63,064 nucleotides of DNA from Bacillota bacterium (GTDB lineage: Bacteria > Bacillota > Clostridia > TANB77 > UBA1234), in the NCBI GenBank assembly GCA_016280725.1, contig JAEEHF010000010.1, positions 1-63,064 on the forward strand, read 5' to 3'. The notes under the pieces were generated by a model. That model searched no databases and had not been told where the DNA came from. It saw only the letters and a list, made by a program, of their open reading frames with translations. This document shows positions 3,557 through 43,689 of this stretch, piece after piece. The first letter of the stretch is position 1. Every line of letters begins with the position of its first letter. The position numbers and the translations under genes are program-made.

Positions 3557-3655
3557 AATGACCTGTCCCCGAAGGAGAGAAAATTCTCCCGAATGTCGTG
3601 TCCCCGAAGGAGAAAAAATTCTCCCAAATGTCGTGTCCCCAAAAACCAAAAGGGA
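3557..3655. repeat. GGGGACACGAC palindromic repeat element
   Basis: Three tandem arms (acctgtccccgaagg, tcgtgtccccgaagg, tcgtgtccccaaaa) are separated by GGAGA-A/T-TCTCC mini-hairpins. It fills the convergent gap between the asd operon and the lipoprotein gene on the other strand. Confidence 0.85.
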
Positions 3656-7207: not shown

Positions 7208-7362
7208 ACCAGGTTTTTGGGGACACGACGGTCACACCTGCTGACCAGGTTTTCGAGGACACGACAGTCACACCTGCTGACCAGGTTTTCGGGGACACGT
7301 CGTCATGTCCCCAAAGGCGAAAAAATTCTCCTCAATGTCGTGTCCCCAAGGGAGAAACCTTC
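7208..7362. repeat. GGGGACACGAC repeat element with three direct subunits
   Basis: The unit caggtttt-ggggacacgac-ggtcacacctgctgac is repeated almost exactly three times as direct repeats (7209, 7247, 7282), followed by the inverted arms gtccccaaagg and tcgtgtccccaag. It lies between the F420-ligase-like gene promoter and the terminator at 7374. Confidence 0.9.
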
Positions 7363-10618: not shown

Positions 10619-10768
10619 GAGCAGGTTTTTGGGGACACGACAGCTAGACCTGCTCAACAAGTTTTTGGGGACACGTCATCGTGTCCCCAAAGGAGAAAAA
10701 AATCTCCTCGATGTCGTGTCCCCGAAGGAGAAAAAATTCTCCTCAATGTCGTGTCCCCGAAGGAAAAA
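10619..10768. repeat. GGGGACACGAC repeat element
   Basis: Two direct ggtttttggggacacgac-type arms are followed by three tcgtgtccccgaagg-type inverted arms with GGAGA/TCTCC mini-hairpins. It lies between the ClpC-type gene's upstream region and the lexA terminator. Confidence 0.88.
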
Positions 10769-18154: not shown

Positions 18155-18297
18155 CTTTTGGGGACACGACATCGAGGAGAATTTTTTCTCCTTCGGGGAC
18201 ACGACATTTGGGAGAATTTTTTCTCCTTTGGGGACATGATGACGTGTCCCTAAAAACCTGGTGAGCAGGTCTGACCGTCGTGTCCCCAAAAACCTTG
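18155..18297. repeat. GGGGACACGAC repeat element
   Basis: Two ttttggggacacgac arms with GGAGA/TCTCC mini-hairpins and two inverted gtgtccc arms, the last preceded by aacctggtgagcaggt, fill the divergent rnj-glmM gap. It lies directly upstream of the glmM promoter. Confidence 0.88.
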
Positions 18298-19807: not shown

Positions 19808-19903
19808 CCTGACCTGTCCCTAAAAACCTTATGAGCAGGTGCAACCGTCGTGTCCCCAAAAACCTGGTCAGCAGGTGCAACCGTCGTGTCCCCAAAAACC
19901 TGG
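19808..19903. repeat. GGGGACACGAC repeat element, three direct inverted-arm units
   Basis: gtccctaaaaacct, then two copies of the module gagcaggtgcaaccgtcgtg / tcagcaggtgcaaccgtcgt, each followed by ccccaaaaacct (period 38 nt). It sits exactly between the glmM terminator and the stop codon of the convergent PstS-like gene. Confidence 0.9.
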
Positions 19904-25187: not shown

Positions 25188-25309
25188 AATATCATCCTTT
25201 CCTATATATGTTACATCTTTTTGGGTAATAATTCAATTAAACCCTAGTCTCTTTATCTTTTCATTCTTTTCAGGAGACTTACTTTCCTGTTACAGTTATG
25301 TTAAAATGA

Positions 25310-25338
25310 TTGAAACAGCATTCCTATATATGTAAACT
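25310..25338 (+). promoter_or_regulatory. Promoter of the large structured RNA candidate
   Basis: TTGAAA (25310-25315), a 17-nt spacer and TAAACT (25333-25338) predict transcription from about 25345. Confidence 0.6.
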
Positions 25339-25344
25339 GATTAT

Positions 25345-26018
25345 GATTGAAGATGAGAGTCTTCCTGAAGACTAAGGAAAATATAATGATTATTAACATT
25401 TCCTTTTTAGTTACGAATAACTTAGGTAACATACTTTCTGACTGGAAAGAAATAAAATTGACTGCTCTTAGAGCAGACATAGAGGTCCAGCCAAAATGTG
25501 TTTTAGGTAGGCTTTTGCTTTGGCTAAAAGTAAGAATAAGCTTCAACTTTTGGCTTTTCTTGGTGAGTAGATTTATGCTACTCGGAGAAATTAAACCGGT
25601 GTGAATAAGAAAAATATGGCTAACAGCCATACTAACACCCCAAAAATTATTATTCACTGATAGGGTTTATACGGTACCTCATTTGGGGTATTCGTGGAAA
25701 AGTTAGAAGTAAAACGGTAAATGAAGTGCGGCTCATGTGCCGAGGGATTCAATTACCATGGAGTTTATCTGCTGGAAGTTATGGTAAGAGCTTGGTTAGA
25801 AGCATTGGGGGTTGGGAAAACCATCGAAAAATGTCTTTTTAGTACACGAGGAAAGTGACGCCTTCAAAGAGCGTATTGCTGTAATGAGGCGTTAAGAAAG
25901 CTTAGAAGAGATCGGATGGCATCAACATTTTATGAAGATAAGCTATCTTTGCTTCCAAAGATGAATATAAATTTAGGTACAAAGCCTATGATATGGGCCT
26001 TGTACCTTATTTATTTTT
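25345..26018 (+). ncRNA. Large structured RNA candidate (about 670 nt), possibly ROOL-like
   Basis: No credible coding frame with a ribosome site exists here. The plus strand has many local helices: CTGCTC-tta-GAGCAG (25462-25476), AGCCAAAA/TTTTGGCT (25489/25548), GAGTAG/CTACTC (25565/25578), TATGGCT-aac-AGCCATA (25615-25631), GTGAATAA/TTATTCAC (25601/25650), TTACCAT/ATGGTAA (25753/25781), ACGCCT/AGGCGT (25858/25887) and ATCTTT/AAAGAT (25945/25957). ACCCCAAA (25637) pairs with TTTGGGGT (25682) and crosses the GTGAATAA helix, giving a pseudoknot. A promoter and terminator bracket it. The size, ornate folding and the tRNA immediately downstream recall the ROOL and GOLLD classes, which often lie beside tRNAs; OLE is less likely as no isoprenoid genes are near. 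Class assignment is unverified. Confidence 0.65.
25975..26018 (+). terminator. Terminator of the structured RNA
   Basis: AGGTACAA-a-GCC pairs with GGC-c-TTGTACCT across tatgatatg, followed by tatttattttt. Confidence 0.85.
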
Positions 26019-26027
26019 ATGTCTATA

Positions 26028-26055
26028 TTGAAAATTTTCAAATCATGCGTATAAT
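26028..26055 (+). promoter_or_regulatory. Promoter of tRNA-Thr
   Basis: TTGAAA (26028-26033), a 16-nt spacer and TATAAT (26050-26055) lie 10 nt upstream of the tRNA. Confidence 0.75.
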
Positions 26056-26064
26056 ATAAGTAGT

Positions 26065-26140
26065 GCCACCATAGCTCAGCTGGCAGAGTGCATCCTTGGT
26101 AAGGATGAGGTCACGGGTCCGACTCCCGTTGGTGGCTCCA
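26065..26140 (+). tRNA. tRNA-Thr (anticodon GGT), CCA encoded
   Basis: Acceptor stem GCCACCA/TGGTGGC, D arm GCTC/GAGT, anticodon stem CATCC/GGATG with loop TTGGTAA (anticodon GGT at 26098-26100), T stem ACGGG/CCCGT, encoded CCA. G1-C72 and C2-G71 fit Thr identity. The T loop is TCCGACT, with C instead of the nearly universal U at position 55, and the D stem ends in a G-T wobble, so this tRNA is somewhat divergent. Confidence 0.92.
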
Positions 26141-26153
26141 AGATTTACAGAAT

Positions 26154-26242
26154 TCTGGGGACATGACATTTAAGTCTGTTCATGAAAAAGCTTCAAAAAG
26201 CTTTACGATTATGAACAGTTTTGAATGTTGTGTCCCCAAAAT
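26154..26242. repeat. Palindromic repeat element, long-arm variant
   Basis: ctggggacatgacatt pairs with aatgttgtgtccccaaaat. The inner arms ctgttcat and atgaacag pair around aaaaagcttcaaaaagctttacgatt-type sequence. The ends match the family and the centre is unique to this copy. It lies between tRNA-Thr and the flippase gene. Confidence 0.8.
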
Positions 26243-28931: not shown

Positions 28932-28987
28932 TAAAGGGACACGACATACAAGCACATTTTTTGAGCTTATATGTCGTGTCCCTAAAA
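28932..28987. repeat. Simple palindromic repeat element, bidirectional terminator-like
   Basis: GGGACACGACATA-c-AAGC pairs with GCTT-ATATGTCGTGTCCC around acattttttga. It occupies the whole gap between the two convergent stop codons (28925 and 28994). Confidence 0.88.
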
Positions 28988-39084: not shown

Positions 39085-40701
39085 ATGAAAAAGTTTTTCT
39101 CTTTACTAAAAGCTATGATGAGCCAAGATATGAATGTTTTTAGATATAAAAACTACTCCAGTAACTCAAATATTCGAAAAATGCTTATTCCAATAGTTTT
39201 AAGTGTTCTCGTAATGTTTAGCATAGGTTCATTATATTTTGGAGCAGCCATAGAACTTAACAAAATAGATATGATGCCATTAATTCTTTCTCTAGCGCTA
39301 GCATTCCCTAGTATTCTTGCTGTAACTGAAGGCATATACAAGGCTCCTGGAATACTATTTGAAGCAAAAGATAGTGATATGTTATTTGCATTGCCTATTA
39401 GCAAAAAACACATACTTATGGCTAGATTAATTAAGCTTTATATATTTCAATTATTGTATAGCATGTTATTTGTACTTCCTGGGATGGCAGTATATGTATT
39501 TTTTGAAAATCCCGGTATTGATTTTTATTTGATATCATTATTAATGATATTAACTTTCCCTATAATACCAACAATTATTGGTTCTATAATTGGTTTTTGG
39601 GTGAAAAAAATATCTTTGAAATTTAAGACTGGTAAAACAGTACAGACAGCATTAACGATAGCTTTCATGGCAATAATTATGATAGTTTCCTTTAACATGA
39701 ATAATTATACAGAATTACTTGTTAATAATTCGGAAAGTATTAATAATACTTTACTTAATGTTTATTATCCAATTGCTGCTTATCAAAAGCTTATAACAAA
39801 TTTTGATGTTTTGACACTATTAATTTTAATTGCTATTAATGTAGCATTTATAGGATTATTCTTGCTTGTTACAAGTAAGACGTACTTTAAAGCTTTATCG
39901 AAATCCAAAGAGAATAATAATTATCATGCTTCTAAATCAAAGCCTTTAAAATTTGAAAAGAATAATCAATTACGTTCATTAATTAAAAAAGAATTTAGCA
40001 CATATACTTCATCACAAGTATATATGTTTAACACTCTATTTGGTTTAATATTACTTGTAATAGGAACTTTTGCACTATGCACAAATTTTGATAATGCTAT
40101 AACAAGTATTACAGCAGATGAAATACCAATTGAAGATGTAGAATCATTAAGAATGCTCGCACCTAAAATTTTTCTTGCAATGATAATAGCTATTTCATTC
40201 ATGACTTCTATCACCTCTTCTTCAATTTCATTGGAAGGAAAAAAGTTTAATATACTAAAGTCAATTCCAACAAAAGTTGATACTATTCTTCTTGCAAAAA
40301 TACTAATGAGTAATATCATAACAATTCCTGTAATTTTATTATGCAATGTAATATTCTTCTGCTTTAACAAAGCAAGCTTAATGGACATTTTAATGTGCTT
40401 GATTGCTTCTGTGCTAGCTCCATCTATCTCAGCAGTATTTGGTTTATTAGTTAACCTTAAATACCCAAAGATGGATGCTACTTCAGACGCCGAAGTAGTT
40501 AAGCAAAGTACTAGTTCAATGGTATCTGTATTAGGCGGAATGGCATTTGCCGGCATTTTCTTTGTGTTAATTTTTGTGTTAGCTGGTATTGGTGATTTAG
40601 CATTGGCATCAGTAGACATTATATTATTAGTTATTCTGCTTGCTCTTTGGAGAAAACTTCGTCATTACGGCGAAAAAAGATTTAGAGAAATTGAAGTGTA
40701 A
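39085..40701 (+). CDS. ABC-2 type exporter permease
   Basis: A 538-residue membrane protein with about 12 helices and two long charged loops, partner of the preceding ATPase. Sequence such as PGILFEAKDSDMLFALPISKKHILMARLIKLY and LLFALWRK-like ends match Firmicute efflux permeases with a duplicated six-helix core. Substrate is unknown; antibiotic or peptide export is typical. Its stop TAA (40699-40701) is immediately followed by a palindromic repeat. Confidence 0.88.
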   Translation: MKKFFSLLKAMMSQDMNVFRYKNYSSNSNIRKMLIPIVLSVLVMFSIGSLYFGAAIELNKIDMMPLILSLALAFPSILAVTEGIYKAPGILFEAKDSDMLFALPISKKHILMARLIKLYIFQLLYSMLFVLPGMAVYVFFENPGIDFYLISLLMILTFPIIPTIIGSIIGFWVKKISLKFKTGKTVQTALTIAFMAIIMIVSFNMNNYTELLVNNSESINNTLLNVYYPIAAYQKLITNFDVLTLLILIAINVAFIGLFLLVTSKTYFKALSKSKENNNYHASKSKPLKFEKNNQLRSLIKKEFSTYTSSQVYMFNTLFGLILLVIGTFALCTNFDNAITSITADEIPIEDVESLRMLAPKIFLAMIIAISFMTSITSSSISLEGKKFNILKSIPTKVDTILLAKILMSNIITIPVILLCNVIFFCFNKASLMDILMCLIASVLAPSISAVFGLLVNLKYPKMDATSDAEVVKQSTSSMVSVLGGMAFAGIFFVLIFVLAGIGDLALASVDIILLVILLALWRKLRHYGEKRFREIEV

Positions 40702-40763
40702 ACTTTTGGGGACACGACATTGAGGAGATTTTTTTCTCCTCAATGTCGTGTCCCCAAAAGTTC
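40702..40763. repeat. Perfect palindromic repeat element between convergent stop codons
   Basis: acttttggggacacgacatt-gaggaga and the exact inverse with a tttttt centre. The 62-bp element fills the whole space between the plus-strand permease stop (40701) and the corrected minus-strand stop TGA (40764-40766). It has T-rich runs and could serve as a bidirectional terminator. Confidence 0.93.
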
Positions 40764-43689
40764 TCACTCTAAGTATCCTACAGTATAGCACCATAAATCT
40801 CCGCGTATATGGAGCTCTAAATTCTGATATACCTATAAATATTTTGTTATTGTATATATGTATCCCCTGTGGTTCGCTATTATCTTTTCCTTCAATAAGC
40901 TCTATGTCTCTATATATGGCTCTTGTTCCGCTAAAATCCCAGACTTCAATTCCATCATCACCATTACATCCTCTTATCTCGTATAAGTAGCCATCTTTAA
41001 TTGCAAAGCCATTGCAAAAATACTTTCCACCTTCTTTAGTATAACGCTCAAAACTGAATTTATAAAGAAGCGTTACCTTGTCTTCGTTTATCAAATCAGA
41101 ATACCTATATACTTTGCATGTAGTTCCACTTACCATAGCCAATAAATCATTTTCCGAATCAACGCATGGCTGTCCCTTAATTTTCGGATACTCTTTCCAA
41201 GGCTTTGTACTATTTTTTATTTCATCTATGCTACCACTTCCTAAATCAAATACTCTTAAGAATGAGCCTTCTTCACCGTCTGATTCTGCAGTTAAAAGCA
41301 TCAGCCATTTATCTTTATTAGGAGACTTCGCTACGTCAAATGACTGTCCATGAGTATAAAAATCACTTAAATTTACTTGTGTAACATTTCCCGAAACATA
41401 ATTATTCTTTCCTGTTGTATATTTTACTATTTTACTATTTGCTGTATCAAGAACTCTTAATCTAACTTGTTCTTTACTTGAATTACCTATATATTTAGCA
41501 ACAAGTATGAATCGTTCTGAATTGTTATTCTCAGGATTCACTAAACCAAAATTTTGAAAATTTCCTTTGTTTCCCGGAACACCCGTATATAATCGACTCA
41601 TATATGTTTTAAATGACTGATTTCTTACATCTATTAAGTTTAACTTATTAACAACTATTACCGTGCATGTTTCTGTTAGTTCCTCACATTTAGCTGTTAT
41701 TGTGGCTGTTCCTTCTGCAACCGCTGTTAGAACACCTTCCGAGTCTATTTTTGCAATTGCTTGATTACTCGAAGCCCAAGTTATTTTCTTTTTGCCTGCT
41801 TTTGCAGGCATAATTTCAAGAGTAAAATTAGCTTTTGATTTTTTTGCAATCAATAGTGAGTTTATATTATTTTCAGAATTCAATTTTAAATTGCACTTTA
41901 TCTTAATGCTCTGCACCGCAATAGTATTTAATATTGAAACACTAATACTTGCTGACGCTTCCTTAAAGTTATTTCCTGAAGTAGATGAAACATCGATGTT
42001 TGCGTTTCCCTCACCTATGCCTTCTATTACAATCTTTTTATTTATTGGATCATGTATAACGTTTGCAACATTAGGATTAGAACTTTTCACATTTATAATG
42101 CCATCTCCATTGTACTCATATAGTACTTCTTTAGTGTTGCCTTCCTCAAAAGATAATTTTGAATTCGTAGGTTTTAAACTAGCTGTTGTTTTTGTAATTT
42201 TCCAAGTTAATTCTTTTGCATCGCTTGTACCATCATCCCATACATAGCCATTCATTAAAGAAGCTTTTGCCGTATATGTACCAGCATTTGTCGCTTTTGT
42301 TATTCCGCTTAAAATATAGCCTTCATCAGCAATAAGTATGTGCTCCTTTTCGTCATATTCCATACTATTAAATGAAGGAACTTTAACGGGTTTTTTAGTA
42401 TTTATAACTGTTCTTAATGGTGTAGCAGTTGGCTTTGCATTTTTTGGAGTAGTTATAGTTTGCGTCTTTACTGGCGTTAAAATCGGAGTATTACTTGGAG
42501 AAATAGTTTTTACAACTGTATTTTTGGGAGTAGTTATAGTCTGCGTCCTTGCTGGCGTTAAAATCGGAGTATTACTTGGAGAAATAGTTTTTGCAACTGT
42601 ATTTTTGGGAGTAGTTATAGTCTGCGTCCTTGCTGGTGTTAAAATCGGAGTATTACTTGGAGAAATAGTTTTTGCAACTGTATTCTTGGGAGTAGTTATA
42701 GTCTGCGTCCTTGCTGGCGTTAAAATCGGAGTATTACTTGGAGAAATAGTTTTTGCAACTGTCTTTTCTGGAATCGATGTCACAGGTGGAACTACTTCAG
42801 TCGGTTCTACTACAACAATTTCATCATTTTGGACAATCGTAACATCCAGTGTTACAGGACTAACCAAAGTTTTTTCACTACTAATAGGTAATAATAAAAT
42901 CGTTGCTTCGCCTTCATTTATGCCCATAACTTCAACTATTTTCTTGTTAGTTTTTATAGTCGCTACTGCGATACTCGAATTTGAACTTACTGCCTTTAGT
43001 GAAAGATTATCTTCGCAAGAATATTGTATTGTTTTAGTTTTTCCTTTTTGAATAGAAATTTTATTGTTACTTAAAGTTATTTCCTTATTCTTTTTTTCCT
43101 CATTGCTAATAATATTAAATAGCATTTGCGAAACTTGTGCCCTAGATAGATTATCTTTTGGACCAAAAGTTCCATCTGCATTTCCAACCATGATACCATT
43201 AGATGCTACTATAGAAATATATTTTTCTAGTCCTTTAGATATTAGTCCTCTATCTAAAAATTTTTCTACCATGCTTTGATCATAATTCGAGCTTTCTAAA
43301 TTAAGTGCCTTAACAATAGTATATGCAACTACTTCTCGACTTATTGAGTCATTAGGCTTAAAAATAGTTCCAGCATTTGGCATATACTTTCCAATTATAT
43401 TTATATACTTATATGCCCAATGACTTGTATCAACATCTGCATAATAAGTAACATTACTATCATTCAGATTTAACGAATTTACAATTATCTTTGCAAATTC
43501 AGCCTTGGAAATATTGTTGTTAGGAAGAAAACTCCCATCTGGATATCCAGAAACAATCCCATTTTTAGCCATATAAGAAATCGCAGAATATGCCCAGTGA
43601 GACACAGGTACATCATAAAAAAAGCCACTTGCATAAGCTACGCTTACAATTATAAAAAGTATTAAAAATATTAGACTGCACTTTTTCAT
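40764..43689 (-). CDS. S-layer homology/Big2 surface protein, read across a +1 shift at CGG
   Basis: ATG 43689 lies 5 nt after AGGAG. A signal peptide is followed by three SLH domains (residues about 25-195) with SHWAYSAI and GYPDGSF motifs that anchor proteins to wall polysaccharide. A Thr/Pro linker contains four near-identical 30-residue units (coded 42440-42760). Big2-like domains (TNSKLSFEEGNTKEV, ITWASSNQAIAKIDSEG) follow, then a beta-propeller-like C-terminal part. In the zero frame the end is TAT-ACG-CGG-AGA and it then runs through the palindromic repeat. Dropping the C at 40803 gives YTGDLWCYTVGYLE and a stop one base before the repeat. This is the best-placed single-site case in the window. 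Confidence 0.78.
42437..42765 (-). repeat. 90-bp tandem repeat encoding a Thr/Pro linker
   Basis: Four copies with 90-bp period: gttatagt-tgcgtc...ggcgttaaaatcggagtatt acttggagaaatagttttt-acaactgta. Copies 2-4 are nearly identical, copy 1 has minor changes. It encodes a flexible linker, with near-identity suggesting recent expansion. Confidence 0.9.

Follow-up and report, generated by a model that had tools for sequence, protein, structure and literature searches.

A candidate genus-restricted family of large structured noncoding RNA upstream of tRNA-Thr in rumen Clostridia

Introduction

Does a stretch of about 670 nt lying beside a tRNA gene in a Bacillota genome encode a large structured noncoding RNA (ncRNA), and, if so, does it belong to a known class? 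The DNA analysed here, referred to as the window, is a 63,064-nt stretch of contig JAEEHF010000010.1 (assembly GCA_016280725.1). An initial annotation, made from the letters of the window, proposed a large ornate RNA with a pseudoknot at this locus and likened it to ROOL and GOLLD RNAs because of its size and its proximity to a tRNA. To our knowledge, few bacterial RNA classes are longer than 500 nt, and most of these were found through being widespread. OLE is a large chromosomal structured RNA that works with proteins. ROOL (RF03087) is an ornate RNA of about 570-660 nt, of rumen origin and located near tRNA, and assembly into a homo-oligomeric nanocage is a ROOL trait. GOLLD and ROOL are often found near tRNA islands in phages or prophages, and GOLLD is conserved in its 3' region but variable elsewhere (PMC12286853).

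Results

The whole predicted unit spans positions 25345-26016 of the plus strand, which also carries the promoters, domains, helices and tRNA gene described below, and is delimited by its promoter, a conservation edge, its fold and its homologues. The promoter and the conservation edge place the predicted 5' start near GATTGAAG, while the predicted 3' end is the U-tract of the terminator hairpin P12. The promoter of the initial annotation corresponds to a promoter-like site, TTGAAA-17-TAAACT, at 25310-25338, which has a counterpart (TTGAAC-17-TAAACT) at the equivalent position in a sister species, G003; the terminator was likewise recovered as a hairpin at 25975-26007 followed by a U-rich tail. 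A block upstream of the promoter, TTACAGTTATGTTAAAA (25290-25306), is identical in the three-species alignment except for one base and lies within a 22-nt palindrome, ATTATGTTAA-AA-TTAACATAAT, in a second sister species, G001. This block (TTACANTTATGTTAAAA) is retained in all three species though the promoter of G001 differs, and could be a UP element or an operator. No exact second copy occurs elsewhere in the window genome, and as a regulon marker the block gave no signal, with 17 genome matches at up to two mismatches compared to 16 for a reversed-pattern control.

When 95 related genomes were searched at the DNA level, a near-full-length relative was found in G003 only (70% over query positions 26-731, E 8.6e-72), and the G001 relative matched in two blocks representing both ends. 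The homologue records, JAEEYG010000097.1 and JAFYBZ010000041.1, are both from Clostridia MAGs, and all three genomes are MAGs with an estimated contamination of 6-10%. JAFYBZ010000041.1 is a sheep rumen record, and JAEEYG010000097.1 also appears to derive from the rumen. In the three-species alignment, both ends form conserved domains, and the sequence between them diverges. Identity among the three species is 78-86% in the 5' domain (about 140 nt), 91-96% in the 3' domain (about 82 nt) and 40-55% in the middle (400-520 nt), where alignments of shuffled sequences give a baseline of 42-43%. As a neutral yardstick we used the fourfold-degenerate sites of leuS, which are 52-53% identical, the LeuS proteins of the two sister species being 91 and 89% identical. 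Since the end domains lie far above this neutral level, our data indicate that the ends are under strong selection while the sequence of the middle is close to neutral.

The conserved 5' domain (25345-25483) contains helices P1 to P5, and its model R1, built from the three species, scores 148-162 bits in these same species. P1 (GAAGAU-GAGA-GUCUUC, 25349-25364) has an invariant GNRA loop, and in G001 one of its A-U pairs is replaced by G-C; it is the first hairpin of the comparative structure and replaces the version given by the single-sequence fold. P2 (AAGGAAA/UUUCCUU, with an inner UAAU/AUUA, 25374-25405) also has one A-U pair replaced by G-C in G001, and P4 (CUUUC/GAAAG, 25434-25449) has C-G, U-G and U-A at one pair when aligned in a hand register. 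In the alignment, P3 (GUUAC/GUAAC, 25410-25430) and the stem of P5 (CUGCUC-UUA-GAGCAG, 25462-25476) are invariant. P3 and P5, together with P10 of the 3' domain, are almost without variation and are thus uninformative on covariation either way. Across the 5' domain, 94% of cells pair compared to 43-49% when the alignment is slid. The case for this domain leans on conservation more than on covariation, since 61 of 500 shuffles attain the observed number of double changes.

The middle domain (25484-25885) keeps its helices. The closing helix Pm1 (UAAACC/GGUUUA, 25592-25597 with 25664-25669) is ACAGAC/GUUUGU in G003 and ACAAAC/GUUUGU in G001. Pm2 (GUGAAUAA/UUAUUCAC, 25601-25608 with 25650-25657) is replaced by AAAUGUA/UACAUUU in G003 and by a 15-bp helix in G001, and the hairpin Pm3 (UAUGGC/GCCAUA, 25615-25631) has another stem in the equivalent place in both sister species. 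In the MFE fold of segment 25589-25670, or its counterpart, Pm3 is nested in Pm2 and Pm2 in Pm1 in all three species, with different bases, though these middle helices were picked by hand with the folds already known. P8 of the window is not clearly more stable than shuffled sequences. P9 (UGACGCCUU/GAGGCGUUA, 25856-25894), immediately before the 3' domain, folds as a hairpin in each species. Six of its nine pairs differ on both sides among them, a count that rests on the chosen hand register, as the MAFFT alignment A10 places a gap of G001 inside the stem and gives no double changes.

The middle domain also holds the strands of the 8-bp pseudoknot proposed earlier, 25637-25644 with 25682-25689. 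The complementarity exists, but 37% of dinucleotide shuffles have one or more of equal quality, and the G003 sequence creates two mispairs, with TTTGAGCT instead of TTTGGGGT as the second strand; our data therefore do not support this element. The helix that it was said to cross, GTGAATAA/TTATTCAC, recurs with other bases in G003 (AAATGTA/TACATTT) and in G001 (15 bp).

The near-invariant 3' domain (25892-25973) contains P10 (AGCUUA/UAAGCU, 25899-25904 with 25939-25944), whose loop of 32-34 nt is almost invariant, and, in the alignment, the hairpin P11 (AUCUUUG-CUUC-CAAAGAU, 25945-25962). The P10-P11 region is not clearly more stable than shuffled sequences in any of the three species. The terminator P12 (25975-26018) follows, with 8 bp, a 1x1 loop, 6 bp and a U-rich tail, and this architecture is kept in the three species while both sides are changed in 11 of its 14 pairs. 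For the outer helix, on the alignment made by the tool itself, the observed score was reached by 3 of 500 shuffles and all slid controls scored lower.

Compared to shuffled sequences, the whole RNA of the window has a folding z-score of about -6.5 (20 shuffles) or -9.2 (60 shuffles), with -4.3 in G003 and -7.5 in G001. The corresponding values for the middle domain are -6.2 (window), -1.9 (G003) and -4.2 (G001). A strong fold is by itself weak evidence here, as hairpin repeats in other parts of the window fold more strongly still. Double-sided changes number 1 in P1, 1 in P2, 3 in Pm1, 6 in P9 and 11 in P12; with three sequences, the covariation statistics are weak except for the terminator. 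The comparison of homologues that the initial annotation had called for thus yielded double-sided changes and did not refute the structure. Comparative helices displaced some of those in the single-sequence fold. The initial proposal of a large ornate RNA candidate was upheld.

We found that neither the plus-strand ORF at 25347-25604 nor the antisense ORF at 25301-25657 has a Pfam match. A gene for a small protein, translated from a structured mRNA between an ATG near 25387 and position 25604, would be consistent with an AGGA-like Shine-Dalgarno sequence ahead of that ATG and with a frame that is open in the window and G003, where the protein starts are alike. In G001, however, the ATG is replaced by ATT and the frame is interrupted by in-frame TAA and TGA stops; similarity ends at the edge of the RNA domain rather than at the end of the ORF, and the best-conserved 3' domain lies about 290 nt past the ORF. 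Such a gene is therefore very improbable, and the earlier statement that the 670 nt contain no credible protein agrees with both the Pfam result and the broken frame of G001.

A tRNA-Thr gene (anticodon GGU), predicted by ARAGORN and Rfam 15, lies at 26065-26140, about 47 nt from the end of the ncRNA. The tRNA adjacency noted in the initial annotation is thus real, with the correction that the ncRNA and tRNA-Thr are separate units, since the tRNA has its own near-consensus promoter, TTGAAA-16-TATAAT, at 26028-26055, with a comparable site in G003. The same tRNA-Thr(GGU) gene is located downstream, on the same strand, in all three species while the remaining neighbours vary, and therefore the ncRNA and tRNA-Thr constitute a conserved pair. 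A constant position upstream of tRNA-Thr(GGU) is what a leader, attenuator or processing product of the tRNA-Thr unit would have, yet we regard this origin as highly unlikely. In addition to the promoter of the tRNA itself, an intrinsic terminator precedes the tRNA in the window and G003, and other genera of the family have the same tRNA without such an RNA ahead of it. Furthermore, two opposite-strand genes, CcdA-like and thioredoxin-like judging from their sequences, stand between the ncRNA and tRNA-Thr in G001, so that the two do not form one transcript there. The tRNA-Thr surroundings in nine further genomes from the same family contain no relative of the ncRNA. Where this genus has the ncRNA, other genera have different genes ahead of the same tRNA-Thr(GGU), with an ECF-type sigma factor gene there in all three cases tested (L041, L042 and L045).

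The window also contains a REP- or MITE-like family of GGGGACACGACA hairpin repeats, with 32 matches compared to about 5 expected, many of them in gaps between ORFs. These repeats are located at 1970-2089, 3559-3640, 7219-7347, 10631-10758, 18160-18287, 19810-19893, 26152-26242, 28935-28983 and 40695-40768, and they coincide with several of the segments that fold most strongly in the window. In G003, GTGTCCCCAAAAT, which has similar letters to GGGGACACGACA, lies upstream of the ncRNA. A long structured RNA without an ORF, in a window with many such repeats, one of them directly after the tRNA, brings to mind the decayed remnant of a mobile ribozyme or intron (group I, group II or HEARO-like) or a local hairpin repeat. 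We consider this the least credible origin, as the ncRNA is single-copy in the window genome, has no Rfam intron or HEARO match and differs in family from the GGGGACACGACA repeats, while 91-96% identity and compensatory pairs are not expected from decay.

We found that, at the gathering thresholds of Rfam 15, the sole match above cut-off is tRNA-Thr at 26065-26140. With E up to 10 and permissive filters, the ncRNA locus gave only chance matches far below the Rfam 15 cut-offs. The covariance-model search proposed with the initial annotation was run and, with E up to 10, the ROOL, GOLLD and OLE models did not match the locus; the ROOL model found nothing anywhere in the window genome. The same model scores 219.7 bits in sister species G001 (G001:C30:8-558, L070), at a contig edge and followed by tRNA-Ala, on what is possibly a phage contig. 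The ROOL test therefore has power in this genus, and the suggested kinship with ROOL or GOLLD is not borne out. The window genome has an ordinary tmRNA (173.5 bits) and an ordinary RNase P RNA (268.7 bits) elsewhere, so the ncRNA is not either of these in disguise. Two more short pieces above the cut-off of the tmRNA model (G000:C59:18879-18958 and G000:C57:40895-40974), besides the full tmRNA on C12, may be tRNA-like matches. The locus has the hallmarks of the broad class of large structured bacterial ncRNAs, namely a promoter and a terminator, both read from the sequence, no ORF and a conserved structure.

A divergent ROOL or GOLLD member left behind by a prophage would be of similar size, and would fit the rumen origin, the same-strand tRNA nearby and the many helices, given that both RNAs often lie near phage tRNA islands and that GOLLD joins a conserved 3' region to a variable rest (PMC12286853). 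Against such a relic, the models are silent at the locus while a real ROOL is present elsewhere in G001, and no phage genes were seen in the adjoining ORFs. The tRNA setting is a single chromosomal tRNA-Thr, constant in three species, rather than a phage tRNA island, and no copies were found in phage, plasmid or viral collections. The arrangement also differs from that of GOLLD, as both ends are conserved, the 5' end included, and the variable part is the middle. A prophage remnant is thus very doubtful; of the two options first raised, a chromosomal or a relic copy, the former holds and the latter, a phage relic, is not supported.

The distribution of the ncRNA is narrow in the collections searched. 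The 3'-domain model recovered only the known members from 385 genomes of the order, and the 5'-domain model did the same in 95 related genomes and in 391 from the class. A pattern for the 3' loop matched only G001 and G003 in a collection of 84,980 species genomes and had no match in viral contigs, nor did two further patterns, although the patterns are exact and distant relatives could be missed. Searches of phage and plasmid DNA returned only short chance matches. No copy was detectable in G002, the fourth species placed in the genus (leuS 57% identical, genome 84% complete). Weak candidates in other genera with 25-30 bits for the 3' domain (G361, G088, G259 and others) were rejected for having no 5' domain close by, and G548 (35.7 bits) was rejected because it lies in an apparent flagellar gene cluster without a 3' domain.

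Discussion

Our data indicate that the locus very probably encodes a real, new family of structured ncRNA that matches no catalogued RNA family. The best reading is that the family would be chromosomal, present in three or more species within a single genus of rumen Clostridia and, as far as sampled, restricted to that genus. Most likely it acts as a scaffold or ribonucleoprotein RNA, or as a self-assembling RNA, rather than being a cis-regulator, an intron or an antisense RNA. We would assign about one third of the weight to a ribonucleoprotein scaffold and somewhat less than one third to self-assembly in the manner of ROOL, and our confidence in any single mechanism is much lower than that in the family itself.

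The 5' and 3' ends may form the working core, including the GNRA tetraloop of P1, which is invariant on a varying stem and may dock within the RNA. The 32-34-nt loop of P10, also part of this putative core, remains nearly unchanged among species in which about half of the neutral sites have changed, and is probably a contact site for a protein or a second RNA. The middle would be an arm, constrained in shape but not in sequence, that acts as a spacer or support for the core.

The same P10 loop, together with conserved single-stranded stretches in the 5' domain and the lack of a tie to a cis target gene, could instead point to a base-pairing RNA or sponge that acts in trans and would pair with mRNAs through its invariant single-stranded loops. 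We consider this unlikely, since a seed needs neither two distant conserved ends nor a shape-constrained middle, and most bacterial base-pairing sRNAs are much shorter. Tentatively, we suggest as one possibility a new large bacterial RNA class, unrelated to ROOL, GOLLD and OLE, that originated in a single rumen genus and is borne by the chromosome and not by phage, with ends that would form a self-assembling particle or ribonucleoprotein core around a sequence-free structural arm.

A genus-restricted family with near-invariant ends and a middle conserved in shape only suggests that catalogues understate how often large RNAs arise. With this ncRNA, the question of which part of a large RNA does the work can be put to the test on a small scale. 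Moreover, with a true ROOL in the same genus, it illustrates that size and tRNA adjacency are insufficient to call an RNA ROOL or GOLLD.

Like OLE, the ncRNA described here is large, chromosomal and structured, but it has no OLE model match. The raiA-motif RNA (ModT), described in one account as conserved in >2,500 species (PMC11706538), is similarly a chromosomal structured ncRNA of Clostridia, whereas the ncRNA reported here has no Rfam match and is confined, as sampled, to one genus. With GOLLD it shares large size, a conserved end domain joined to a fast-evolving remainder, and a tRNA neighbour; it differs in having no model match, no phage link and a 5' end that is conserved as well. Finally, it resembles ROOL in size, rumen origin, ornate structure and a nearby tRNA, but has neither a model match nor a phage context, and is built with conserved ends that flank a variable middle.
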